From Methylocapsa aurea (GTDB taxonomy: Bacteria > Pseudomonadota > Alphaproteobacteria > Rhizobiales > Beijerinckiaceae), in assembly GCF_000746085.1 (NCBI RefSeq), contig NZ_KN050804.1, positions 347,064 to 411,063 of the forward strand: 64,000 nucleotides of DNA, in the 5' to 3' direction. The notes beneath the pieces are model-generated. The model was not told where the DNA came from and did not search any database. It worked only from the letters and a program-made list of their open reading frames with translations. The translations under genes were made by a program, and so were the position numbers. Of the stretch, positions 33,305 to 62,875 are shown piece after piece. Every line of letters begins with the position of its first letter. Position 1 is the stretch's first letter.

Positions 33305-33445
33305 AATAGGTGCGCCTTGCTGGATCGTCACCTGCCTTTCCCGCAGGCGCCTGACTAGCGCATCACAATAATTTACTTACACTATAAATTAAATAGTCTA
33401 ATATCGCTAGGCGCCTTGAGCCCGCTCCGCACGGAGACCCTTGCG

Positions 33446-34864
33446 ATGATTATACGAAGGAATCCCCCCGCTTCACCCGCCAAAAACAAGAGCCCGCGTT
33501 CATGGAGCATCGCGCTTCTTGCAGTTGCTGGCGGCGTTCTCGGATGCGCCGCCGCCGCCAGCCCCAGCGTCTTCCCAACCGGCACGACGCGCTACGAACT
33601 GGCTAAGGCCTATAATTCCTTCGTGCTCTTTACCGGCGGAGACGAGATCACGCGATTGATCGACCTCAATGGCGCTGTCGTCCATGAATGGAAATATCGC
33701 GGGTTCCCCCCGGTCTTTCTCGATCCGGCGCTCGTCGACGGCAAGCGGGGCCATGTCCTGCTCACTCTCGCCACGGTCGAGGGCAGCGGCGCCGATCTCG
33801 TGCCCGGACGCGTCAGTCCGCGCATTGCCAAGACCATCGGCGAAGTGGATTGGGAAGGCAAGACGCTCTGGACATTTGACGACAGGGCCCCGGGCGGCCG
33901 CGCCCAGCAGCATCACGATCTCGCCCGCCTGCCCGGCGGCAACACGATCGTGCTCGCCAAAATCTCCCATCCGGTCAAGGGATTCGACCAGCCCCTCGTG
34001 CTCGATGACGTTGTCTATGAAGTCGATCCCAAAGGCCAAATCGTCTGGTCATGGACGGCCTCCGAACATCTTGAGGAATTCGGCTTCTCCCCGGAGGAGC
34101 TGAAGCTCGTGCGCGCATCGACATCCGCCGATTATCTGCACGTCAACAATCTGAAGCCCATCGGCCCCAACCACTGGTTCGATGCAGGCGACAAGCGGTT
34201 CGATCCGGAAAATCTCATCTTCGATTCAAGAAGCGCCAATTTCGTCGCGATTATCGAGAAGAAGACCGGCAAGATTGTCTGGACGCTCGGGCCGCATTTT
34301 CCGCCCATTCCAGAAACAGGGACGACGACGAACCGCGCCGTCCCGCGCCCCGTCGATCAGATTTCCGGCCAGCACGACGCTCATTTCATCCCGGCCGGCT
34401 TGCCCGGCGCCGGCAATCTCCTGCTTTTCGACAATCAGGGCGAAGGAGGCTATCCGCCGGCGGCGCTCACCGTCACCGGCGGCTCGCGCGTTCTCGAGAT
34501 CGATCCGATCAAAAAGGAAATCGTCTGGCAATATATCGGCCCCGATTCCGGCGACCCCGGCTGGACTTTCAAGAGCACCCACATCAGCAATGCGCGCCGC
34601 CTGCCGAACGGCAACACCTTCATCAACGAAGGGCAATATGGCCGCTTCTTTCAGGTCACGCCAAAGGGCGAGATCGTGTGGGAATATATCAATCCTTTTC
34701 CGCGCCGCGCCACGGACGCGGATGGACGCGTCAATGTGAACTACCAAGTCTATCGCGCGCAGCCCGTGCCTTATGACTGGGCGCCGGCGGGAACGCCCCA
34801 TTCGGAAGCAGCCGTTGCGACCCCGGACAATGCAACCTTCCGGATCCCGGCGACAACCCATTGA
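33446..34864 (+). CDS. Arylsulfotransferase-like (ASST) secreted protein
   Basis: A 472-residue exported propeller protein of the arylsulfotransferase-2 type. After a signal segment (WSIALLAVAGGVLGCAAAAS) it shows repeated blade motifs: ITRLIDLNGAVVHEWKYRGF, AQQHHDLARLPGGNTIVLA, VYEVDPKGQIVWSWTAS, ISGQHDAHFIPAGLPGAGNL, STHISNARRLPNGNTFINEG and VTPKGEIVWEYINPF. Histidines in the first motif of blades are characteristic of the family. Some members transfer sulfate between phenols; many are untested. The chosen ATG has GGAG nine bases upstream; an in-frame TTG 30 bases earlier is less likely. Confidence 0.82.
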   Translation: MIIRRNPPASPAKNKSPRSWSIALLAVAGGVLGCAAAASPSVFPTGTTRYELAKAYNSFVLFTGGDEITRLIDLNGAVVHEWKYRGFPPVFLDPALVDGKRGHVLLTLATVEGSGADLVPGRVSPRIAKTIGEVDWEGKTLWTFDDRAPGGRAQQHHDLARLPGGNTIVLAKISHPVKGFDQPLVLDDVVYEVDPKGQIVWSWTASEHLEEFGFSPEELKLVRASTSADYLHVNNLKPIGPNHWFDAGDKRFDPENLIFDSRSANFVAIIEKKTGKIVWTLGPHFPPIPETGTTTNRAVPRPVDQISGQHDAHFIPAGLPGAGNLLLFDNQGEGGYPPAALTVTGGSRVLEIDPIKKEIVWQYIGPDSGDPGWTFKSTHISNARRLPNGNTFINEGQYGRFFQVTPKGEIVWEYINPFPRRATDADGRVNVNYQVYRAQPVPYDWAPAGTPHSEAAVATPDNATFRIPATTH

Positions 34865-35441: not shown

Positions 35442-35656
35442 CGCCGCCGAGGCAACACGCGGCGCCATGCGAACGCGTCCTGGCAAACGGTCTATGCGGC
35501 GAGCTCGCGGGCCAAGGCGCCTATCCAAAACCGGGTCCGCGAAAGCCGCGAGTTTCGACGGCCTTCTGGGTCAATCGGCGGCTGATCGATCCTGTCGAGA
35601 GCGGGCCTGATTCGATCACGAAAAGGCGGGCCATTCCGTCCCTTGGCCGATCCGCC

Positions 35657-35803
35657 TAGAGCGCTTCCCGATCAGATGGAATCATCTGATCGAAAAGGAA
35701 TCGCTTAAGATCAAAGGGTTGGAGCATGTTCTGATGAGACATCGGATATATCCGATGTCTAAATATCGAAAAAGTCGATCAACTTTTTCGGAACATGCTT
35801 TAG
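35657..35803 (+). repeat. Mosaic intergenic repeat, family A, full-length
   Basis: A 147-base copy in the opposite orientation to the one at 28052. It starts TAGAGCGCTTCCCGATCAGA and ends ACATGCTTTAG. Both modules are present, including GACATCGGATATATCCGATG-type dyad. Its right edge provides the stop codon of the serine acetyltransferase gene. The gap of about 215 bases between the cupin gene and this repeat contains nothing recognisable. Confidence 0.8.
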
Positions 35804-36756
35804 ATCCCCCCGCCATCCACGAAAGCGTCGCTGCGCGCCTGGGCCTGAGTGATGCTGCTTCCTGGAGGAACGCTGCGCGTCAGCCAGACATTCCCGCCGA
35901 TGGTCGAACCGCGGCCGATGGTGATCCGGCCAAGGATGGTCGCCCCGGCGTAGATCACAACGTCATCCTCGATGATGGGGTGCCGCGCCCCTCCCTTGAC
36001 CAGGGCGCCGGCGTCGTCCACGGCGAAACGCTTCGCCCCCAGCGTCACCGCCTGATATAGTCGGACATTCCGGCCAATGATCGCGGTTTCGCCGATGACG
36101 ACGCCGGTCCCGTGGTCGATGAAGAAGCTGCCGCCGATCTTCGCCCCTGGATGGATGTCGATGCCCGTGGCGGAGTGGGCAATCTCCGAAATGATGCGGG
36201 CGAGCAGAGGAGCGCCCAGTTGATAGAGCTCATGCGCGAGCCGGTGCCGCGTGATCGCAACAATTCCTGGATAACAGAACAGCACTTCATCGACGCTCCG
36301 CGCGGCGGGGTCGCCCTCATAGGCGGCAAGAATATCGCTTTCAAGCAGGGCCCGCGCTTTTGGCAAATTGGCGGCGAAGGCACGAACGATCTCGCCAGCT
36401 TCCTCCTCCTGCCGAGCGCTGCTCTTTCCAGGCGTTCCGGCGACAAGCCGCAATTCTCGGCCCACCTGTTCGAGAAGCAATCGCAGCGCTCCATCGAGCG
36501 AGCGCCCAACGAATTGATCGACTCCTTCCTCGCTCAGACCGGAAGGACCCAAATGCCTTGGAAAAAGCGCCGCGGACACCCCATCGAGAATGTCCGACAG
36601 CGCTTCTTGCGATGGCAGTTCGTAGGTCACTCCGTCGGGCTTTGTGTTTTGTCGCCACTCGGCGCGCAAGGTGCGCAGCTCCGCAACGATTCGATCAAGC
36701 TCCCACAGCGATGGCGTGAGAGCATCTCTATCTGGCGCCTGAACTTGATAGTTCAT
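35800..36756 (-). CDS. cysE: Serine O-acetyltransferase
   Basis: A 318-residue serine acetyltransferase of the EpsC-like long type, making O-acetylserine for cysteine synthesis. The N-terminal helical domain leads to DEVLFCYPGIVAITRHRLAH, then the hexapeptide left-handed helix: SATGIDIHPGAKIGGSFFID, HGTGVVIGETAIIGRNVRLY, IIEDDVVIYAGATILGRI and GGNVWLTRSVPPGS. The His of DIHPGA and HGTG are catalytic region residues. The ATG follows AGGAGG. It lies 137 bases after the cargo desulfurase on the same strand and is a known genetic partner of Family 2A encapsulins. Both ends abut family-A repeats. Confidence 0.9.
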   Translation of the reverse strand: MNYQVQAPDRDALTPSLWELDRIVAELRTLRAEWRQNTKPDGVTYELPSQEALSDILDGVSAALFPRHLGPSGLSEEGVDQFVGRSLDGALRLLLEQVGRELRLVAGTPGKSSARQEEEAGEIVRAFAANLPKARALLESDILAAYEGDPAARSVDEVLFCYPGIVAITRHRLAHELYQLGAPLLARIISEIAHSATGIDIHPGAKIGGSFFIDHGTGVVIGETAIIGRNVRLYQAVTLGAKRFAVDDAGALVKGGARHPIIEDDVVIYAGATILGRITIGRGSTIGGNVWLTRSVPPGSSITQAQARSDAFVDGGGI

Positions 36757-36787
36757 GTTGGAACCTCCTCCGCGTCGCGGGTCGCGC

Positions 36788-36863
36788 TGGAGCGCCTCCC
36801 GGTCGGATGGAATCATTTGATCTATAAGGAATCGCTTAGATTGCGAAGGGTTGTGGCATGTTC
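36788..36863 (+). repeat. Family-A repeat, first module only
   Basis: A 76-base partial copy reading GGAGCGCCTCCCGGTCGGAT, then AATCATTTGATC and GGCATGTTC at the end. It lies between the cysteine desulfurase cargo and the acetyltransferase, in the same orientation as the copy at 35657, so the acetyltransferase gene is bracketed by direct repeats. Confidence 0.7.
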
Positions 36864-36893
36864 CGCTCGGAGCGAATGAAATGCGCGCGGCTT

Positions 36894-39230
36894 TTACCGC
36901 GCGCGATAGGATTTCTGAGTCTGGATGCGATGCAGAGCGACGACAAGGGCGTCTATGTCTTCATAGGTGTTGTAGAGCGCCAGCGACGGCCGCACGGTCG
37001 TCTCCAGCCCGAAGCGGCGCAGGATCGGCTGAGCGCAATGATGGCCGGCGCGCACCGCAATGCCTTCGCGGTCGAGCGCGGCGCCGACATCCTCGCTGCG
37101 GCAGCCGTCGAGGACGAAGGAGATCACGCCGGCCTTCTCTTTCGCCGTCCCGATGATCGTCAGGCCCGGCACCCCGAGAAGCCCCTGCGTCGCATAGTTG
37201 AGCAGCTCATGCTCATAGGCCGCGATATTGGCCATGCCGATGCGGTCGAGATAGTCGATCGCGGCGCCGAGCCCGACCGCGTCGGCGATATTGCCGGTGC
37301 CGGCCTCAAAGCGCAGAGGCGGCGCCTGATAGACGGTCTTCTCGAAAGTGACGTCGGCGATCATATTGCCGCCGCCCTGCCACGGCGGCATGGCGGCGAG
37401 GACGTCGGGCTTGCCGTAAAGTGCGCCGATGCCGGTCGGGCCGAAAACCTTGTGCCCGGAAAAGACATAGAAGTCGCAGTCAAGCGCCTGGACATCGACC
37501 GGCATATGCGACACCGCCTGTGCGCCGTCGACGAGCACGCAGGCGCCGTGACGATGGGCGATCGCGACCATCTCCTGCGCCGGCGTCACCGTGCCGAGCG
37601 CGTTCGAGACTTGCGGGAGGGAGACGATGCGCGTTCTGGGCCCGAGCAGCTTCGCATATTCGTCCAAAAGCACCTGCCCGCTATCGTCGACCGGGGCGAC
37701 GCGCAGCACGGCGCCCGTCTCGGCGCAGAGCATCTGCCAGGGCACGATATTGGCGTGATGTTCGAGCCAGGTGATGACGATCTCGTCGCCCTCGCGGACA
37801 TTGCGGCGGCCCCAGGCTTGGGCGACGAGGTTGATCGCTTCGGTCGCGCCGCGCGTGAAAACGATGTCATTTGCCGAATCCGCGCCGAGGAAGCGACGGA
37901 CTTTCTCGCGCGCCGCCTCATAAGCGTCGGTCGCGCGCGCGGCGAGCGCGTGGGCGGCGCGATGGATGTTGGAGTTTTCGGTCTCATAGAACAGCGCGAG
38001 CCGATCGATCACCGCCTGCGGCTTCTGCGTCGTCGCGGCGTTGTCGAGCCAGATCAGCGGCTTGCCATGGACCTGCTGGCGCAGGATGGGAAAGTCGCGC
38101 TTGATCGAAGCGGCGTCGAAGGCGCGCGTCCCCGATAGCAGCTCGGGAGCGAGCAGAGGCTGAAGCTGCGGCGCCACAGGCGCGAAATGCGGAGTTTGGG
38201 CGGCCCCATTCGGGGCTGCGGCAGGCGCGGCGGCGGCTTGGGCGTCGTTGAAGAAATACAAGCTTTCGCCGGGAATTGCCGGGTAACCTGTGGGAGCGGA
38301 CGCGTGCGAAAATCCCGAAGGAGCCGCGGTTGAGCCAAACGATTGCGCATCGCCGAGTCCCTGTGGACGCAAGTCGGTCTCGGTGGGAAAATTCGGGGCG
38401 AAATTTGGACTCTGCTCGATGGAAGGACCGGGAGCGCCGGCAGCGGCGGGCAGGCTGGAGGCGAGATTTTGGTGCGGCAAAGCGGGACTGAAGGAGGCGC
38501 CCGGAAGGCCCGTCCCCAGCGCCGCCGCAGCCGCGCTAGGAGCAGTTGGCGCCGTGGCGGGCCGCGTCGGCGCGACAGCCGTCCCCGCTTCATCGAGAAA
38601 ATAGAGGGATTCGCCTAAACCGGCCGGCGGGCCAGCAGGGAAAAACCCAGGCGTAGATCCCGCCGGCGCAAAGTTTGAACCAGGGGCGCCCGGCGCGAGG
38701 GATGTCGTTTGGCCAAGACTCAGCGGCAGCGCGGCAAGATCCGCTTCGCTCAGGACGCCTTGGTGGGATGTTTGGCCCTTTTCCGCCGAAGGACCGTTGA
38801 ACGGAGCAAGGGGGATGGGAGCAGGATTTTCGGCGGCGCCCGCGGGGATGCCGGTCACGCTGGTGGCGAGTCCCGCGGCGGGAATATGTTGCGCCGGCGC
38901 TCTGCCTGCATCCGTCGAATGGCCCGGCAGTTCGGTGACGAAGGGAACCGATTGTGCGCCTGGCGCGCTTGTCGCCGGCGCGGCGGCGGCGGCGCCGATC
39001 GCGCCTGGCAAGGACGTCGGCGGCGACGGCGGCCGCTCTTGCATTGCGGCGAAGTTCGCCAGCGCCTGCGGATCCACCGCTTGCCCCGGCGCGCCGTTGA
39101 AAAATGCGTTCGCCAGATGCGCGATCAGACCGGGGTCGATGACGGAAGGCCCCTGGCCCCCCCATTGGGGGGCCGGAGGGGTTGCAACCGGCGCTGTGGC
39201 CGCTGCATGGCGGGGATCAGGGATATTCAT
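36894..39230 (-). CDS. Cysteine desulfurase encapsulin cargo with long disordered N-terminus
   Basis: A 778-residue protein in two parts. Residues about 371-778 are a SufS/CsdA-type class II cysteine desulfurase, with PLP Lys594 in SGHKVFGPTG, the His in WLEHHANIVPW, and the catalytic Cys732 in VRAGHHCAQPI. It removes sulfur from cysteine as persulfide. Residues 1-370 are Ala/Pro/Gly-rich and predicted disordered, with a helix-like DPGLIAHLANAFFNGAPG at 32-49 and the motif GESLYF repeated at 206 and 321. Normal SufS is about 410 residues. The start overlaps the shell gene stop (ATGA). This layout is the established signature of Family 2A encapsulin cargo. Confidence 0.93.
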   Translation of the reverse strand: MNIPDPRHAAATAPVATPPAPQWGGQGPSVIDPGLIAHLANAFFNGAPGQAVDPQALANFAAMQERPPSPPTSLPGAIGAAAAAPATSAPGAQSVPFVTELPGHSTDAGRAPAQHIPAAGLATSVTGIPAGAAENPAPIPLAPFNGPSAEKGQTSHQGVLSEADLAALPLSLGQTTSLAPGAPGSNFAPAGSTPGFFPAGPPAGLGESLYFLDEAGTAVAPTRPATAPTAPSAAAAALGTGLPGASFSPALPHQNLASSLPAAAGAPGPSIEQSPNFAPNFPTETDLRPQGLGDAQSFGSTAAPSGFSHASAPTGYPAIPGESLYFFNDAQAAAAPAAAPNGAAQTPHFAPVAPQLQPLLAPELLSGTRAFDAASIKRDFPILRQQVHGKPLIWLDNAATTQKPQAVIDRLALFYETENSNIHRAAHALAARATDAYEAAREKVRRFLGADSANDIVFTRGATEAINLVAQAWGRRNVREGDEIVITWLEHHANIVPWQMLCAETGAVLRVAPVDDSGQVLLDEYAKLLGPRTRIVSLPQVSNALGTVTPAQEMVAIAHRHGACVLVDGAQAVSHMPVDVQALDCDFYVFSGHKVFGPTGIGALYGKPDVLAAMPPWQGGGNMIADVTFEKTVYQAPPLRFEAGTGNIADAVGLGAAIDYLDRIGMANIAAYEHELLNYATQGLLGVPGLTIIGTAKEKAGVISFVLDGCRSEDVGAALDREGIAVRAGHHCAQPILRRFGLETTVRPSLALYNTYEDIDALVVALHRIQTQKSYRAR

Positions 39231-40171
39231 AACGGATAGTCATAGTAGTGGCCGACCTCGACGTTCTCCAGAACGCCGAGCGCATCCGGAGTGAGGATCG
39301 CCGATGAGCAATAGAGCGAGATCAGATAGGAGGCGATCGCCTTGCGGTTGATTCCCATGAAGCGGACCGAAAGACTCGGCGTCACTTCCCCCGGCACGCC
39401 GGGCTGGAAGAGGCCGATGACGCCCTGTTTCTTTTCGCCTGTGCGCAATAGCAGGATCGAGGTCTTGCCGGTCCCGTTGCCGGAATCGGTAATCTTCAGC
39501 TTGTCGCTCGGAACCAACGGAATGCCGCGCCAGGTGATGAAGGGCGTGCCGAACAGGTTGATGGTTGGCGGCGGAACGCCGCGCTGCGTGCATTCGCGTC
39601 CGAAAGCGGCGATGGCGCGCGGATGGGCGAGGAAGAAGGCCGGCTCTTTCCAGACCTTGGCGATCAATTCATCGAAATCGTCGGGCGTCGGCGGCCCGCG
39701 GCGCGTGTTGATCTTCATCGAGGGCGCGGCATTGGTGAGGAGGCCGTAATTTGCGTTGTAGATCAGCTCCGATTCTTGGCGCTCCTTGACCTTCTCGATC
39801 AGTAGGCGAAGCTGCTCCTGGATTTGATCATAGGGCTGATTGTAGAGATCCGACACGCGGGTCTGGACGTCGAGGACGGTGGTCACCGCATTCAGGAAAT
39901 ATTCGCGCGGAGCGGTCTCATAGTCGACGAAAGTTTCCGGAAGATCGGCGTCGCGCTCCCAGCTCGGGCTGCACTCGACGTCGCTTTGACCCTCGACCTC
40001 TTTAACCCGGTTCAGCCGGAAAATGCCGGCTTCGACCGGCACCCACGGCAAAAAGGAAACCAGCCAGCGCGGCGTGATCCCCGACCATTGCGCCCGGGTC
40101 TTCGTCGCATTGGCAAGCTGCCGGGCGGCCGGCTCGCTCAGCGTCCTGCGGACCTCGACTTCATCAGGCAT
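39227..40171 (-). CDS. Family 2A encapsulin shell protein
   Basis: A 314-residue HK97-fold protein of the SrpI-type Family 2A encapsulins. Characteristic stretches are NATKTRAQWSGITPRWLVSF near residue 21, LPWVPVEAGIFRLNRVKEV, the long helix LYNQPYDQIQEQLRLLIEKV, ELIYNANYGLLTNA, VWKEPAFFLAHPRAIAAFGR and the C-terminal GVLENVEVGHYYDYPL. Length is standard for this family; no cyclic-nucleotide-binding domain is fused, which separates 2A from 2B. AGGAGG precedes the ATG closely. It should self-assemble into a shell enclosing the desulfurase encoded next. In cyanobacteria and Acinetobacter such shells store elemental sulfur; the same role is inferred here. Confidence 0.95.
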   Translation of the reverse strand: MPDEVEVRRTLSEPAARQLANATKTRAQWSGITPRWLVSFLPWVPVEAGIFRLNRVKEVEGQSDVECSPSWERDADLPETFVDYETAPREYFLNAVTTVLDVQTRVSDLYNQPYDQIQEQLRLLIEKVKERQESELIYNANYGLLTNAAPSMKINTRRGPPTPDDFDELIAKVWKEPAFFLAHPRAIAAFGRECTQRGVPPPTINLFGTPFITWRGIPLVPSDKLKITDSGNGTGKTSILLLRTGEKKQGVIGLFQPGVPGEVTPSLSVRFMGINRKAIASYLISLYCSSAILTPDALGVLENVEVGHYYDYPL

Positions 40172-40355
40172 ATGAACACCTCCTTGGCTGAATTTGGAGC
40201 CTCAACATCGGCTCCCGATTGCTCGCTTAGGTCGTGTAGCATTGGCCTTGGAGAATGTTTTTCTCTTTTTAGCGTTGTGACAAAAATACGCATAAATATA
40301 TAACTTCTATTTGGTATCCCATGTTAACTCTATAAGTATACGATTACGATATACA
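40172..40355 (-). promoter_or_regulatory. AT-rich promoter region of the encapsulin operon
   Basis: About 180 bases with marked A/T bias (about 40240-40350) against a GC-rich background. It contains a dyad GTATA-N9-TATAC at 40336-40354 (written CGATTACGA in the spacer), a possible regulator site, and several T/A-rich -10-like segments on the minus strand. AGGAGGTG lies just before the start codon. The boundary with the transposase remnant is about 40380. Confidence 0.45.
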
Positions 40356-40382
40356 TTATCATCTGTTCGACGCGCCATCACT

Positions 40383-40555
40383 GGAAGACAACGACCTTCG
40401 CCGCCGCCGCCTTGCGGCTTGGCGCGCGCATCGCCACCCGAACGGCGCAGCGCGTGCCAGCGAATCGCGCTCGACGCGCTGATCCAGAGCCTGACGGAGC
40501 GAAACCCTTCGTCAATGGCGGCCAGGACACGGGACCGAAGATCGTAAAGAAAGAG
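40383..40555 (-). pseudogene. IS630-family transposase fragment
   Basis: The minus-strand frame reads LFLYDLRSRVLAAIDEGF, then ISASSAIRWHALRRSGGDA and RAKPQGG. This matches the N-terminal helix-turn-helix part of IS630-type transposase OrfA (DLR-RV-AAI, S-SSA-RW, KPQGG), with a small internal deletion and no downstream catalytic region. Both ends are lost and no inverted repeats remain. It lies about 210 bases upstream of the encapsulin gene, evidence of past insertion activity at this locus. Confidence 0.55.
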
Positions 40556-40641
40556 ACGCGGGCATCAAGGCCGGCCCCTTCGCCAGCCCTCATCGTGAAT
40601 CAGATCAAGGCCGATTCGGGCAACCCCCAAAACCGATTCAA

Positions 40642-41241
40642 TCAGACCGAATTCCGCTCTAGAGCGTGGATGCGATCGTCGCGTTCAGCGAGTGCGGCGG
40701 CGACATCGGCGGCCTCGAATCGCTGCGGGATATGTTGCGGGCAATTCGAGTCCCAGGCGGAAACCGCGAACAGGATCACCTGCTCGGGGCGCGCCTTGTA
40801 GCCTTGCGGCATTAACGTCGCCATCAACTCGGCGTCGCCTTCGACGACGCGAGCCCTGCCCCAGATCTTGATCCGCCGCCGGTGCGCATAGTCGATCAAG
40901 AAGAGAAAGGCCTTGGGGTTGTCCGCGAGATTGCCGAGAGTGATATATTGCCGGTTGCCGACGAAATCGGCAAAGCCAAGGGTCTTGTCATCGAGCGCCT
41001 TGAGAAAGCCGGGAGGGCCGCCACGGTGCTGAATATAGGGCTGCCCCTCCGCGTTGGCTGTGGCGAGAAAGATGCTTGTTTGCGCTTCGACGAAGGCCTT
41101 GAGATCGGGGGTGATGTGGGTCTGCCACGAGCCGCCCTCTTCCATGTGCTCGTAGGATTGCCTGGAGCCCTTGCGGGCTTGAATCGCCTTAACGGAGGGC
41201 GTGAAGGCGACATCGCTGGGATAGATCTGTTTGGCGTCCAT
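40642..41241 (-). CDS. Pyridoxamine 5'-phosphate oxidase-family protein
   Basis: A 199-residue FMN-binding split-barrel protein. Family segments are FLATANAEGQPYIQHRGGPP (residues 58-77), TLGFADFVGNRQYITLGNLA, NPKAFLFLIDYAHRRRIKIW and GRARVVEG. It is not a pyridoxine-pathway PdxH: sequence type fits general FMN-dependent oxidoreductases or heme-utilisation-type members. The tail includes ALERNSV, partly coincident with a CTCTAGAG-bearing intergenic scrap. It closes a three-gene minus-strand unit with NTF2-like and AhpD-like genes, divergent from LysR, so probably redox or detoxification related. Confidence 0.88.
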   Translation of the reverse strand: MDAKQIYPSDVAFTPSVKAIQARKGSRQSYEHMEEGGSWQTHITPDLKAFVEAQTSIFLATANAEGQPYIQHRGGPPGFLKALDDKTLGFADFVGNRQYITLGNLADNPKAFLFLIDYAHRRRIKIWGRARVVEGDAELMATLMPQGYKARPEQVILFAVSAWDSNCPQHIPQRFEAADVAAALAERDDRIHALERNSV

Positions 41242-51164: not shown

Positions 51165-51653
51165 TCAACGCTTCTCCGGTTCGGATGTCTTCGGCGCCGG
51201 CGGGACAATTTTGGTCAATGCGCCGCCTTCGGATTCGTAGTTCTGAACCCCGATGGCGCCAGCTACCTTGAAGCCGTGCGCGGTCAAAAGATCGGCGGCA
51301 ACCCCGGCGCGCCCCGCGTGATTCGAGACGGTCACGATCACCCGTTCCTTGGGGATGAAGGCCAGCTTATTTTCGAGGTCCTTCGCCTGAACGCTCAGAT
51401 AGACGGGCAAACCGCCGATTGCCGTCAACTCATCGGGACGCCGGACGTCAATGATGAGCAAGCTTTCAGGCTTGGCCAGCAAGGCGTCGAGATCAGCGCG
51501 CTTGAGCTGCGGCGACTTGGACTTGTATTCAGCAGGAGCCGGCTGCGCGGGCGCGGCGGCTTTCGCGGCGTCGCCCTGCTCCGCAGCCAGAGCAAAGGAA
51601 GACGATAGAATTATCGCTGCCGTGACGCAGGTAAGAAGCTTGCGCATTGTCAT
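51165..51653 (-). CDS. Exported rhodanese-like protein without catalytic cysteine
   Basis: A 162-residue protein with a signal peptide (LLTCVTAAIILSSSFALAAE), a short Ala/Pro linker and a rhodanese domain: ADLDALLAKPESLLIIDVRR, PDELTAIGGLP and VIVTVSNHAGRAGVAADLLT. The usual CxxGxR active-site loop reads SNHAGR, so the catalytic Cys is replaced by Ser110. It is therefore unlikely to be a sulfurtransferase and may be a binding or sensing module. It sits between the hydrolase and peroxiredoxin genes. Confidence 0.85.
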   Translation of the reverse strand: MTMRKLLTCVTAAIILSSSFALAAEQGDAAKAAAPAQPAPAEYKSKSPQLKRADLDALLAKPESLLIIDVRRPDELTAIGGLPVYLSVQAKDLENKLAFIPKERVIVTVSNHAGRAGVAADLLTAHGFKVAGAIGVQNYESEGGALTKIVPPAPKTSEPEKR

Positions 51654-53087: not shown

Positions 53088-55553
53088 ATGAAGAGAACAA
53101 TGAAGAAGGCATCTTTGGGGGTCGTGCTAGGCCTTTCGGTTGCGGCCGCAATGGCGGACGACAAGCGCATTGACAACGAGGCCAAGGCGGCTGGCGAGGC
53201 GGCTCAAAGCGCTGCAGCGCAAAAGCCGGAAGTTGCAAGCGCTGCTGCTTCAAGTGCGGCGCCTGAGACCGCCGCTCCAGTGCGCAACGCCGAAGCGGCG
53301 AGCGCGCCCGCAGCAAGCGCAGCCGCGCTGACGGCGGCCGCGCCGAGCGCCGCCTCGCGACTGCCTTATGGGTGGCAGCCATTGCAGAGAGCCGCGGAAC
53401 CTTCGGTCAAGCAAAGAGACTGGGTGCGGACGCCGATCGACGCTTTTATCCTGGCGAAATTGGAAGCCAAGGAACTGAAGCCCTCCGCTGACGCTGATCG
53501 AGGCGCCTTCGTCCGCCGCGCGACGCTCGATGCCTGGGGCCTTATCCCAACGCCAGAGGAAGTCGCCGCATTTGTGAACGACGGTTCTCCGGACGCTTAC
53601 GAAAAGCTAGTGGATCGTCTGCTGGCGTCGCCACATTACGGGGAGCGCCAAGCGCGCCGTTGGCTTGACTTGGCCCGCTACGCGGACAGCGCCGGGTTCC
53701 AAACGGATCAGACGCGGGCGAACATGTGGCGCTACCGCGATTATGTGATCAACGCGTTCAATCAGGACAAGCCATATTCCCGCTTCATCCAGGAGCAGTT
53801 GGCTGGCGACGAGTTGGTTCCGGGCAACCAGGACGTTCTGGTCGCCACTGGATTCTTGACGGGGTATCCCGACAATTATAACTCTCGTGACCTTGTTCAG
53901 AGGAAATATCAAATCACCACAGATATTACCGATACGGTTGGTCAGGCAATCCTGGGGACCACAGTCGGTTGCGCGCGGTGTCATAACCACAAGACAGATA
54001 AGTTCACCCAGAAGGACTACTTTTCTTTCCAGGCCTTTTTTGCCAATACAAGCGAAGACTTCAAGACCCATGCAATCAAAGGAGAGGTCGAGCGCGACTA
54101 CGATAAGCAGTGGGCCAAATGGGAGGAGGCGACCAAGGAAATCCGGGAAAAGCGAGCGGCGCTGTCCGATCCTGTCAAAGAGAAAGCTCTAAAATATCAC
54201 AAGGAGCGCTACCTGACAGATAGCCGCGCATCAATTTTCAAGCCCGACAGCGAGTGGACGCCGCACGATCGATGGATCAATCACCGCCTTGACAACGTCA
54301 CAACAGACGCCGATCTGGCGGGATATATCCGGGACGCCGGAGAGAATAAGGCGAATCCCGATTACAGCGCTGAAAATGTGGAGAGATGGGAGCAATACAA
54401 AAAGCTCGGAGAAGAACTGAAGAAATTCGATAAGCTCAAGCCCGCTAAGGGCTCCAACGCCTATACGACCGTGACCGAACTCGGTCATCCCGATGCTCCT
54501 CCTAGCTACATTTTTTCCGGCGGCAATCACGAAAAGCCTCTGGAGGAAGTCCAGCCCGCCTTTCCCGAAGCCCTGACCGCTGAGAAGCCGGTGATTGCGC
54601 CGACATCGACTTCATCCGGCCGCCGGACGGCCCTGGCGAACTGGCTCACCAGCCCGCAAAATCCCCTGACGGCGCGAGTCTACGTGAACCGGGTTTGGAA
54701 CGAATACTTCGGCAAAGGCATAGTGGCGACGGTTAGCGATTTCGGAAAAGCCGGCGACAAGCCGACGAATCCCGAGTTGTTGGACTACCTCGCCGACACC
54801 TTCGTCAAGAATGGCTGGAGCGTCAAAACTCTGCACCGCCAGATCCTTCTCTCGAGCGTCTACCGCCAATCGTCGGCCTATCGTGAAGATGCGTATAAGG
54901 CGGATCCCGAAAATAAGCTGCTGGCGGTGTTCCCCCGGAAGCGTCTGGATGCCGAAGAAATTCGCGACTCGCTGCTGGTGGCGTCTGGGAAGCTTGAAAA
55001 TAAGGTGGGCGGCCCGAGCGTTTTCCCTCCGGTTCCGTCGAACCTGAATGCTGGAGCTCTCTGGGAGGTGTCGAAGGATCCTCAAGATCACAACCGGCGG
55101 AGCCTGTACATCTTCACCCGGCGCAGCGTTCCCTATCCCCTGCTCGAATCGTTCGATATGGCTTCCGCGCAACAGATCCATAGCAAACGCGATGTAACCA
55201 CCACGCCGTTGCAGGCGCTTACTCTGTTTAACAGTGAAGTGGTGTTCGGATGGTCGCAGGCCTTGGCCGGCAGGCTTATTCGCGAAGCCGGCCCCAATGA
55301 ATCAGCCCAACTGAATCGCCTCTACCAGATCTTGTTCGCGCGCAATCCGGATGAATCCGAGAAGGCGACATTGCTGTCGTTCCTGGCGAGCCATGAAGAG
55401 GTCATCACGCAGAAGGCGGAAGACGGCAAGCTATCGATCGCAATCCCGATCGGCTTGAGCGATAGAGCCACATTGAATCCGATTCGGGCCGCCGCGCTCG
55501 TTGCGCTGGTTCACGTGGTCGTGAACTCGAACGACTTCAGCTACCGGTTTTAA
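53088..55553 (+). CDS. Exported DUF1549/DUF1553 (PSD1-type) protein
   Basis: An 821-residue exported protein. A signal segment (LGVVLGLSVAAAMADD) is followed by an Ala/Glu/Pro-rich linker (29-90), the DUF1549 domain (~112-320) with PIDAFILAKLEAKELKPSAD and CARCHNHKTDKF (CxxCH at 295-299), and DUF1553 (~505-770) with TSPQNPLTARVYVNRVWNEY and RRSVPYPLLESFDMASAQQI. Domains of this type are abundant in Planctomycetes, where they sit beside DUF1501 genes. The N-terminal PSCyt1 domain found there is absent. The CxxCH can bind heme or metal. Inferred role: periplasmic polymer or ether degradation; unproven. Confidence 0.85.
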   Translation: MKRTMKKASLGVVLGLSVAAAMADDKRIDNEAKAAGEAAQSAAAQKPEVASAAASSAAPETAAPVRNAEAASAPAASAAALTAAAPSAASRLPYGWQPLQRAAEPSVKQRDWVRTPIDAFILAKLEAKELKPSADADRGAFVRRATLDAWGLIPTPEEVAAFVNDGSPDAYEKLVDRLLASPHYGERQARRWLDLARYADSAGFQTDQTRANMWRYRDYVINAFNQDKPYSRFIQEQLAGDELVPGNQDVLVATGFLTGYPDNYNSRDLVQRKYQITTDITDTVGQAILGTTVGCARCHNHKTDKFTQKDYFSFQAFFANTSEDFKTHAIKGEVERDYDKQWAKWEEATKEIREKRAALSDPVKEKALKYHKERYLTDSRASIFKPDSEWTPHDRWINHRLDNVTTDADLAGYIRDAGENKANPDYSAENVERWEQYKKLGEELKKFDKLKPAKGSNAYTTVTELGHPDAPPSYIFSGGNHEKPLEEVQPAFPEALTAEKPVIAPTSTSSGRRTALANWLTSPQNPLTARVYVNRVWNEYFGKGIVATVSDFGKAGDKPTNPELLDYLADTFVKNGWSVKTLHRQILLSSVYRQSSAYREDAYKADPENKLLAVFPRKRLDAEEIRDSLLVASGKLENKVGGPSVFPPVPSNLNAGALWEVSKDPQDHNRRSLYIFTRRSVPYPLLESFDMASAQQIHSKRDVTTTPLQALTLFNSEVVFGWSQALAGRLIREAGPNESAQLNRLYQILFARNPDESEKATLLSFLASHEEVITQKAEDGKLSIAIPIGLSDRATLNPIRAAALVALVHVVVNSNDFSYRF

Positions 55554-55587
55554 ATGCTTCAATGAATTCTAGAAAAGGAACAAACGC

Positions 55588-57036
55588 ATGAGGACGCAGT
55601 CACGCCGTGAATGGCTCTTCAATACAGTATATGGCTTGGGCGGGCTAACGCTTGCCGCGCAGTTACCCGGGGGCGGCATATTCGCTGCGCCCGCCCTGGC
55701 GGACGCTCTCGCAGATCCTTTAGCGCCAAAGCAGCCGCACTTTTCGCCCAAAGTCAAATCGGTGATTTGGCTCCACATGGACGGGGCGCCCAGCACGCTC
55801 GACTTATATGACTACAAGCCGGAGCTCATCAAGCTTGCCGGCCAGGAAGCGCCAGCCTCTTTCCTCAATGGCATCAAGACAAGCACGCAAGGCGGCGTCG
55901 GCAAGCTCTTTGCATCCAATCGAAGCTGGAAGCAGTATGGCGAGAGCGGGGCATGGTTCTCCGATCTGTTGCCCAATCTGGCGCAGCACGCCGACAAGAT
56001 TGCGTTCATAAAGTCCAGCACGACCATTGGCGCCACGCACGATATTTCGATCCTAAAGCTGAACACCGGCGACACCTCTCCTGGGCGCCCCTCCCTCGGC
56101 GCGTGGGTGACATACGCGCTCGGATCCGCCAACCCGGATTTGCCCGCTTATGTCGTGCTCTATAGCGGCAAGAAGGAACCGACAGGCGGGTCGGTGAACT
56201 GGAGTTCCGGATTCCTGCCCGCCGTCTACCAAGGCACGGCGTTCCGCCCGGGCGCTTCGCCTATCCTCCATCTTGATCGCCCCGAATTGATTGCCTTGTC
56301 GGAACAACGAGACGGCCTTGATCTTCTGAAGCGCCTCAATGAACAGCGAGCGGCGCTGCATCCCGAGGACACTGAACTCCAGGCGCGCATTCGATCCTAC
56401 GAATTGGCCTATCGCATGGAGGCCACTGCGCCTGAAGCTGTTGATCTCACCAAGGAAACAGACGCCACTAAGACGCTTTATGGCCTGGATGATCCCGCAA
56501 GTAAGGATTACGGCACTTCCTTGTTGCGCGCCCGACGCCTCGTGGAGCGCGATGTGCGCTTCATCCAAGTTGTTTCGGGGCCGATCGAGGCTGCTGGAAA
56601 CGAAGACGCCAGAAACTGGGATGCGCATCAAGACCTCGAAAAAAATCATGGCGCGCACGCCAAGGCCGTCGACAAGCCTATCGCGGGGTTGCTCGCCGAT
56701 CTCAAGGCGCGCGGGCTGCTGGACTCCACTCTCGTAGTGTGGACCTCGGAATTCGGCCGCACCTCCTACGGTCAAAGCGGCAATGGCCGCGACCATAATC
56801 CGTGGGGTTACACCCAATGGATTGCCGGCGGCGGCGTCAAGGCTGGCTCGACTTTCGGCGAAACGGACGAAATCGGCTTGCAGGCGGTCGGCAAGAAAGT
56901 CGACACCTACGACCTCCACGCAACCGTCCTTCAACTGTTGGGGCTTGACCACCTGAAGACCGTGTTCTTGAAAGCTGGCCGGGCGGAACGTCCGACCGTG
57001 GTCTACGGCGAAGTTGTTAAAGAGCTTCTCGCATAA
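55588..57036 (+). CDS. Tat-exported DUF1501 protein
   Basis: A 482-residue protein of the alkaline-phosphatase/sulfatase-like superfamily. A Tat signal SRREWLFNTVYGLGG leads the chain. Core motifs are SVIWLHMDGAPSTLDLYDYK, NPDLPAYVVLYSGKKEP, VWTSEFGRTSYGQSGNGRDH and NPWGYTQWIAGGGVKAGST, with metal-type Asp/His residues. It is the constant partner of DUF1549/DUF1553 proteins. It follows that gene by 34 bases, with AAGGA before the ATG, so they form one operon. Exact hydrolase activity unknown. Confidence 0.88.
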   Translation: MRTQSRREWLFNTVYGLGGLTLAAQLPGGGIFAAPALADALADPLAPKQPHFSPKVKSVIWLHMDGAPSTLDLYDYKPELIKLAGQEAPASFLNGIKTSTQGGVGKLFASNRSWKQYGESGAWFSDLLPNLAQHADKIAFIKSSTTIGATHDISILKLNTGDTSPGRPSLGAWVTYALGSANPDLPAYVVLYSGKKEPTGGSVNWSSGFLPAVYQGTAFRPGASPILHLDRPELIALSEQRDGLDLLKRLNEQRAALHPEDTELQARIRSYELAYRMEATAPEAVDLTKETDATKTLYGLDDPASKDYGTSLLRARRLVERDVRFIQVVSGPIEAAGNEDARNWDAHQDLEKNHGAHAKAVDKPIAGLLADLKARGLLDSTLVVWTSEFGRTSYGQSGNGRDHNPWGYTQWIAGGGVKAGSTFGETDEIGLQAVGKKVDTYDLHATVLQLLGLDHLKTVFLKAGRAERPTVVYGEVVKELLA

Positions 57037-61676: not shown

Positions 61677-62111
61677 ATGCTGTCGAACAAAGGAAAATAT
61701 GGCCTCAAGGCGCTGATGCATTTGGCGACGTTCGAGGGTCCCTGCCTTGCAGCCGAGATTGCCGCTCAAAACCAGATCCCGCGTAAATTCCTCGACGCCA
61801 TCCTGCTCGAACTGAAGAATGCCGGCATCTTGACCAGCAAGAAAGGCAAGGGCGGCGGGTATCATTTGGCGCGTCCAAGCGATAAAATTACCGTTGGCCA
61901 AATAATTCGTATTTTGGATGGACCTCTGGCGCCGATCGCTTGCGCCAGCCGCACCGCCTACCGCAAATGCGCCGATTGTCCGGACGAGGACGCCTGCGCC
62001 GTCCGTAATTTGATGCTCGACGTGCGCGACGCCATAGGGCTTATTCTCGATCGCACGAGCATCGCCTCCTTGTGCACGCGAGGCGACCGAGACAAGCAGC
62101 CGCTTCGATGA
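61677..62111 (+). CDS. Rrf2-family regulator with four cysteines
   Basis: A 144-residue Rrf2 protein. The winged helix-turn-helix is YGLKALMHLATFEGPCLAAE, IAAQNQIPRKFLDAILLELK and AGILTSKKGKGGGYHLARPS. Conserved Cys89, 98, 101 and 107 (CASRTAYRKCADCPDEDACA) could hold an iron-sulfur cluster, as in IscR, NsrR or RirA, though the spacing differs. It therefore may sense iron, NO or redox and control the nearby TonB, cytochrome and DUF1549 genes. It is divergent from tonB; a 295-base gap separates them. Confidence 0.9.
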   Translation: MLSNKGKYGLKALMHLATFEGPCLAAEIAAQNQIPRKFLDAILLELKNAGILTSKKGKGGGYHLARPSDKITVGQIIRILDGPLAPIACASRTAYRKCADCPDEDACAVRNLMLDVRDAIGLILDRTSIASLCTRGDRDKQPLR

Positions 62112-62223
62112 TGGCCTGGCTTTCTCAATTCCCCACCGAAATATTGCGTTAGCTCTGGGGGGTTCAGAAATTCGTAGACCAGAGAGCGATCCGCTTGACG
62201 CCGAGGGGAAGCGCGCGTTATTC

Positions 62224-62242
62224 GTCTATAAATAATATAGAC
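62224..62242 (+). promoter_or_regulatory. Perfect dyad upstream of the XRE-cupin gene
   Basis: GTCTATAAATAATATAGAC has perfect 7-base arms (GTCTATA, TATAGAC) around AATAA, 36 bases before the start codon. Its halves resemble the TCTAT/ATAGA half-sites near the TonB and receptor genes. It is a probable operator, either autoregulatory or bound by the Rrf2 protein. Confidence 0.55.
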
Positions 62243-62278
62243 TTTATGAGATATCTCCCCTTTTTCCCCTTAGAGGCG

Positions 62279-62875
62279 ATGCGGATAACTGGCGATTCCA
62301 AAACAGGCAATTACGACGCAGGCATCGGAGATCGGCTGCGCAGGTTGATGTTGCGCCAAGGAGGGTCCCTTGAAAAGCTGGCTGCGTTGTCGGGACTTGG
62401 GGAGAAAAAGCTCACCGCGATCGCCCTGGGGGAAATGGCCCCGACAATCAATCTTCTATGGAAAATCGCCAACGCCCTTGGCGTTCCCTTTGGCAGCTTG
62501 ATTTCGGCGCGTCATCGTCGCGGCGCGTTTGTTCTGAGAAAAGATCAACAGAAAGTCATCTCTTCGAACGATGGACTTTTCACCTCTCGCCCCCTGTTTC
62601 TTGACGATTCCCAGCGGCTGGTCGAATTTTATGAATTGACCCTTGCGCCGCATCACGCCGTGCGCTCCGAGGCGCACAGCCCAGGAACTCTGGAAAGCCT
62701 TGTCGTCGTCCGCGGGCACATCGAAATCACGGCGGGCAAAGACCCGACGCAACGACTTGGGGAGGGCGACGCACTGGTCTTCGACGGCGACGTTCCGCAT
62801 ACATACCGAAATCTGGGATCGTCTGAAGCCCTTCTCTATCTCGTCATGTCCTACGTTGATTTGACCGAGGCCTGA
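62279..62875 (+). CDS. XRE-family regulator with cupin sensor
   Basis: A 198-residue regulator. The N-terminal XRE helix-turn-helix is LRRLMLRQGGSLEKLAALSG, LGEKKLTAIALGEMAPTINL and LWKIANALGVPFGSLI (residues about 18-78). A small cupin follows, with TLAPHHAVRSEAHSPGTLES, LVVVRGHIEITAG and LGEGDALVFDGDVPHTYRNL. Related regulators bind sugar or cysteine-like ligands. The ATG has AGAGG upstream; in-frame TTG and ATG up to 84 bases earlier are less likely. It lies between the Rrf2 gene and the TonB receptor and probably senses the receptor's substrate. Confidence 0.85.
   Translation: MRITGDSKTGNYDAGIGDRLRRLMLRQGGSLEKLAALSGLGEKKLTAIALGEMAPTINLLWKIANALGVPFGSLISARHRRGAFVLRKDQQKVISSNDGLFTSRPLFLDDSQRLVEFYELTLAPHHAVRSEAHSPGTLESLVVVRGHIEITAGKDPTQRLGEGDALVFDGDVPHTYRNLGSSEALLYLVMSYVDLTEA

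Follow-up and report, generated by a model that had tools for sequence, protein, structure and literature searches.

Organization of the encapsulin operon

The window analyzed here is a 64-kb stretch of the Methylocapsa aurea genome. On its minus strand, from position 40171 down to 35800, three co-directional genes follow one another: a Family 2A encapsulin shell gene (39227..40171, 314 aa), the gene for an encapsulin cargo cysteine desulfurase (36894..39230, 778 aa) and a serine O-acetyltransferase gene, EpsC-type by model (35800..36756, 318 aa from a re-set start). The stop codon of the shell gene and the start codon of the cargo gene share the bases ATGA at 39227-39230. A preliminary description of this DNA had given the same gene order and coordinates and a 4-base overlap between shell and cargo, all of which were confirmed. 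The shell and cargo proteins both score over curated cut-offs, so this gene set is not a chance assembly. No Rfam family matched positions 35500-40700 at gathering thresholds.

About 0.9 kb past the end of the operon, on the other strand, lies a gene for an arylsulfotransferase-like protein (33416-34864; PF05935, 76.4 bits), possibly another sulfur gene. Elsewhere in the window (53088-57036), DUF1549/DUF1553 and DUF1501 genes are adjacent in this alphaproteobacterium, a pair known mainly from planctomycetes.

Shell protein

The shell protein was assigned to Family 2A by the NCBIfam model NF041162 (encap_f2a), which it matched with 507.9 bits where 380 are required, and PF19307 (361.1 bits) was the sole Pfam family found in it. 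The Pfam scan gave no match to a cNMP-binding domain in the 314 residues, which bears out the earlier reading of a Family 2A shell lacking this domain. The Family 2B model is likewise passed (436.8 bits against 400); however, the 2A score is the higher of the two, the protein has only 314 aa, the best 2B stretch spans just model positions 206-450 and the cNMP-binding domain is missing from the scan, so that membership in Family 2B has a vanishingly small probability.

The nearest solved chains by phmmer were 8t6r (2.2e-133, 447.4 bits) and SrpI of Synechococcus elongatus PCC 7942 (6x8m, 1.3e-127), the latter with 428.5 bits over residues 10-312. Among the "Major membrane protein I" shells of Family 2A (8t6r, 8wol, 9ksl), which were compared by sequence alone, 8t6r is the best solved relative. 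The solved 2A shells align with residues 9-314 of the M. aurea protein, and a putative HK97 fold with an N-arm is assigned from these matches to solved structures; the predicted structure of the shell itself had low confidence values, with a pTM of 0.48 and a pLDDT averaging 51.9.

The HK97 fold is common to encapsulins and phage capsids, as stated in PMC8346489, and the shell gene could in principle be the leftover of a prophage, with its present neighbors there by chance. Against this, encapsulin-specific models are passed by both the shell and the cargo, and phage structural families are absent among the 27 other proteins of the window in the Pfam scan. Furthermore, among the best 80 of 574 relatives, all loci in named genomes, the desulfurase gene lies 3' of the shell gene in 74, within 300 bases in 71 of them and 1.1 kb away in three (L057, L058 and L060). 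The six loci without it all terminate 63-911 bases past the shell, and the pairing is thus found in 74 of the 74 loci that extend more than 1 kb beyond the shell, in several phyla. This conserved pairing refutes the prophage reading in practice, leaving it next to no probability.

Cargo desulfurase and its N-terminal arm

The model for Family 2 encapsulin cargo NF041166 (f2_encap_cargo1) matched the desulfurase with 856.5 bits, above its curated cut-off of 800, in agreement with the proposal that the enzyme is the dedicated cargo of the shell. The SufS model TIGR01979 was also passed (580.1 bits against 475.1), and the nearest solved enzyme is the cysteine desulfurase 8kg1. The SufS-like catalytic part begins at about residue 370. 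The active-site residues named beforehand were found at exactly those places, Lys594 in GHKVF and Cys732 in HHCAQ, both invariant across 20 aligned cargo proteins. The N-terminal extension of about 370 residues was also correctly recognized; it measures 368 residues, or 376 to a motif-based boundary.

This arm (residues 1-368; 38127..39230, minus strand) is rich in proline and alanine, with Pro, Ala, Gly, Ser and Thr making up 63.6% of its residues, and it contains no cysteine. It carries motifs of the published types, LIAHLANAFF at residues 35-44, ESLYFL from residue 207 and ESLYFF from residue 322. In the SrpI system, Nichols and colleagues (PMC8049743) named the cargo-arm motifs LARLANEFFS and AASPYYFLDG and reported that the whole arm loads the cargo, whereas a fragment with the second motif alone did not load. 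The two systems thus share a desulfurase with a long N-terminal arm bearing LARLANEFFS-like and YFL motifs, as far as that one is described in PMC8049743 (CyD; 6x8m, 6x8t); they differ in that the arm has about 370 residues in M. aurea and 225 there, and that the YFL-type motif occurs twice in M. aurea.

In each of 72 arms, that of M. aurea included, a loose pattern finds the LANxFF-type motif once and only once, and 42 have a YF motif. These arms come from 75 rows, without L070 and L076 (fragmentary cargo) and L072 (arm end not located), and were read from the first methionine of the open frame, so that some are possibly too long. The arms hold about a tenth as much cysteine (20 of 21,279 residues) as the catalytic portions (278 of 28,339); low cysteine is common in disordered regions generally. 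Loading in M. aurea would probably proceed chiefly through the LANAFF motif. An experiment isolating the LANxFF motif was not found in the literature, as far as the available text of the papers goes.

Serine O-acetyltransferase

The third gene had been described as a serine O-acetyltransferase, which holds at the level of the EpsC model NF041874 (166.4 bits against 150, scored on the longer open reading frame); the cysE model TIGR01172 stayed below its cut-off (172.8 bits against 210.65), and the start had to be re-set. The listed reading frame begins at 36816. The ATG at 36756 has a strong Shine-Dalgarno sequence, GGAGGAGG, in front of it, and a paralogue elsewhere in the same genome begins near the equivalent position; because of these two observations, the start is probably 36756 rather than 36816, giving a protein of 318 aa and a gap of 137 bp after the cargo gene. 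The closest solved acetyltransferases are 3f1x, 6lcn and 9u39 (265.2, 225.1 and 225.4 bits, respectively).

The gene is found in only part of the related loci. Five other loci of the same genus were retrieved with wider flanks. In two of them (L142 and L144) the acetyltransferase gene comes after the cargo gene; no copy was detected close to the encapsulin in the remaining three (L140, L141 and L143) or in L002 and L003, and L004 has one. Its absence from several loci indicates that it is an accessory of the system and not essential to it. In the best 80 of 574 relatives, some of whose loci end early, an acetyltransferase like that of the window (at least 150 bits) occurs in 33, on the shell strand in 17 and on the opposite strand in 16, and an open reading frame family interpreted by its sequence as cysteine synthase occurs in 22. 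In L007, L010, L015, L017 and L020, the acetyltransferase gene is divergent from the shell gene.

The M. aurea genome has five cysE-type matches of at least 160 bits, including the operon copy. A second serine acetyltransferase on contig C7 (L138:4808-6369) is 66% identical to that of the operon and overlaps a cysteine-synthase reading frame of just 203 aa; a tblastn search at this place with a relative's cysteine synthase matched only residues 161-343 of the query.

Host genome and distribution

The host genome (4.0 Mb in 34 contigs) contains a match to the AMO/pmoA family of 366.8 bits, and the closest named shell among the best 80 of 574 relatives is that of Methylocapsa palsarum, with 91% identity. 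Both observations fit the methylotroph-like host that had been suspected from the window alone. In the host's family, 48 of 199 genomes passed the 2A model; ten were removed as 2B-like, with an alignment starting only at about profile position 50 and a frame of 471-523 aa, and 38 remain, one of them partial. Within the genus, the shell is present in seven of ten genomes, the host included. Two genomes, G161 and G187, each have two full-length Family 2A shells.

The operon type is already known, since 1281 Family 2A operons with a cysteine desulfurase were reported in 2021 in the survey PMC8346489, and the M. aurea operon is a further example. According to the same survey, serine O-acetyltransferases and rhodaneses are the most enriched accessories. 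The M. aurea operon shares its cargo type with this class, as described there, and differs from it in having no rhodanese. The acetyltransferase gene comes directly after the cargo gene in M. aurea. An open-access library, a weak guide to what is in print elsewhere, gave no paper combining encapsulin, cysteine desulfurase and methanotroph.

Proposed function

Here it is proposed, with high confidence, that the three genes form a Family 2A encapsulin operon in which an arm-loaded desulfurase would build up a sulfur store, while the acetyltransferase would help to return sulfide to cysteine. Copies of the shell protein would form a T=1 shell of the HK97 fold, and the N-terminal arm would draw the desulfurase inside, probably chiefly via LANAFF. 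Cysteine would enter via the pores and be split, giving alanine and leaving a persulfide on Cys732; sulfur would accumulate inside as a protected store. The acetyltransferase would make O-acetylserine, a role suggested by the published literature, with which sulfide could be fixed back into cysteine. Assembly, arm loading, higher activity in the shell, induction under sulfur starvation and storage of elemental sulfur are carried over by analogy from published work on relatives and would apply to M. aurea to the extent that its shells behave alike. In the SrpI system, PMC8049743 reported that sulfate starvation induces the system and that the desulfurase is about seven times as active in the shell. 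The title of the 2024 paper of Benisch and colleagues states that such shells store elemental sulfur, and sulfur storage is stated again in PMC12407261; sulfur storage in the M. aurea shells may be expected on the strength of these papers.

Alternatively, shell and desulfurase could form a faster, insulated enzyme that passes sulfur on to a cytoplasmic acceptor such as a rhodanese, and no store would be built. A hand-over to co-regulated rhodaneses was proposed in PMC8346489, and the host genome has five rhodanese-domain matches above the Pfam cut-off; however, none of the five lies in or beside the operon, the only rhodanese-like match of the window (51165-51653) stays short of the 22.2-bit cut-off, at 20.8-21.6 bits, and sulfur storage is what the above title and the later text name. 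The hand-over is hence considered improbable, though it keeps some weight beside storage, the preferred reading.

Upstream sequence and candidate operator

To our knowledge, no publication explains how expression of Family 2A encapsulins is induced in these bacteria, and no account was found in the open-access literature, judged by its listings. Upstream of the shell gene, 80 bases before its start, lies a candidate operator, AGAAAAACATTCT (40252..40264, minus strand), which agrees with the palindrome AGAAT-N3-ATTCT in nine of ten positions and is the only site of at least 9/10 across the 64-kb window. A second conserved element, TGCTACA (40235..40241, minus strand), stands eight bases after ATTCTCC in the Methylocapsa-type loci and is possibly a -10 region. 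In an alignment of nine near loci, eight have AAAAAGAAAAACATTCTCC-N8-TGCTACA, or a version of this sequence, before the shell gene, L004 being the one without it.

Sites of at least 9/10 occur in 18 of the 39 Hyphomicrobiales-type upstream regions, each of 250 bases, while 40 shuffles gave 0.5 on average and at most 2. The observed count is an in-sample figure, as the group was picked after the motif had been seen and includes several close kin. In the same sequences, such a site is present in 3 of 1658 other 250-base tiles, and in 1 of 45 among tiles with a GC content of up to 52%. The remaining 46 loci have two sites against 0.5 expected (shuffle maximum 2). In a held-out test, 6 of 10 upstream regions reach 9/10, whereas 60 shuffles averaged 0.17 and never exceeded 2; these ten are what is left of 30 loci (L082-L111) after removal of 20 resembling training or kept regions. 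In a palindrome screen, AGAAT-N3-ATTCT was tied second with five loci (control mean 0.05), behind a GC-rich palindrome with seven, and the highest count for any palindrome in the shuffles was four. An 8-mer screen of the upstream regions was dominated by GC-rich words. The motif is thus a well-supported sequence feature, conserved in part of these loci and missing from about half of them, and it may be bound by a regulator and act as an operator of the shell gene. In the host genome, the Methylocapsa form has three matches with at most two mismatches (control 0), and the best of them, with one mismatch, is the shell promoter.

A wider regulon was looked for and found no support: among the 199 family genomes, the strict form TAGAATNNNATTCTA turned up in 5 and the backwards control in 6, and none of the five sites is at a listed shell. 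An Irr operator was rejected, the Irr box being GAA-N3-TTC, while the spacing here is GAA-N5-TTC. A sigma-70-like scan gave 1 match against 1.0 by chance, and a terminator-like scan 1 against 4.9.

In 5 of the 23 loci whose first site is at least 8/10 (L006, L011, L025, L030 and L035), a second site of at least 7/10 is exactly 21 bases off, and L090 has a double site with the same spacing. Upstream of the shell in L025, two perfect AGAAT-N3-ATTCT sites are 21 bases apart, and the pairs in L006, L011, L030, L035 and L090 are weaker. A fixed second site at 21 bases was rejected as a general feature: the mean over the 23 loci shows no peak at 21, and the window has none. L007, L010, L015, L017 and L020, with their divergent acetyltransferase, lack a site of at least 8/10 upstream of the shell and have TCTAT(C/A)GACAA-N2-TATAG in common there.

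Candidate regulators

At 21 kb from the operon, the plus strand of the window carries a gene for a CymR-like Rrf2 regulator (61677..62111; PF02082, 122.4 bits), for which the best named equivalog model was CymR, with 80.9 bits, under the cut-off of 195. Adjoining it is the gene for an XRE-cupin regulator with HTH_3 and Cupin_2 domains (62195..62875, plus strand), and beyond this are genes for a TonB-dependent receptor and an outer-membrane protein, the receptor running past the end of the window. In M. palsarum (L002), relatives of the Rrf2, XRE-cupin, receptor and outer-membrane genes immediately precede the shell and cargo genes, with identities of 86% (over 94 residues), 64, 62 and 59%, respectively. 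Two Methylosinus loci (L013 and L016) have an XRE gene before the shell and an Rrf2 gene after the cargo, and tblastn also placed XRE relatives close to the encapsulins of Azospirillum, Magnetospirillum and a myxobacterium. A second Rrf2 protein is encoded in the host genome and resembles the Methylocystis protein more closely (63%, compared with 53% for the first). No site of at least 9/10 lies in L158, the stretch containing the Rrf2 and XRE genes, and across the loci the motif did not coincide cleanly with Rrf2 or XRE neighbors. As it tracks neither regulator cleanly, no single binder is assigned to it.

Tentatively, and with less than even chances, the Family 2A encapsulins of Hyphomicrobiales might have their own AGAAT-N3-ATTCT operator, in some cases as a pair with a 21-base spacing, and a regulator that senses cysteine or sulfur would bind it, most likely a CymR-like Rrf2 or an XRE-cupin protein. 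The encapsulins might then belong to one program with a TonB-dependent receptor for the uptake of sulfur compounds. The bacteria with sulfur-related nanocompartments gain a methane-oxidizing Methylocapsa relative through this operon, and the palindrome, together with the linked regulators, would make the switching of Family 2A encapsulins testable by gel shift and reporter assays.
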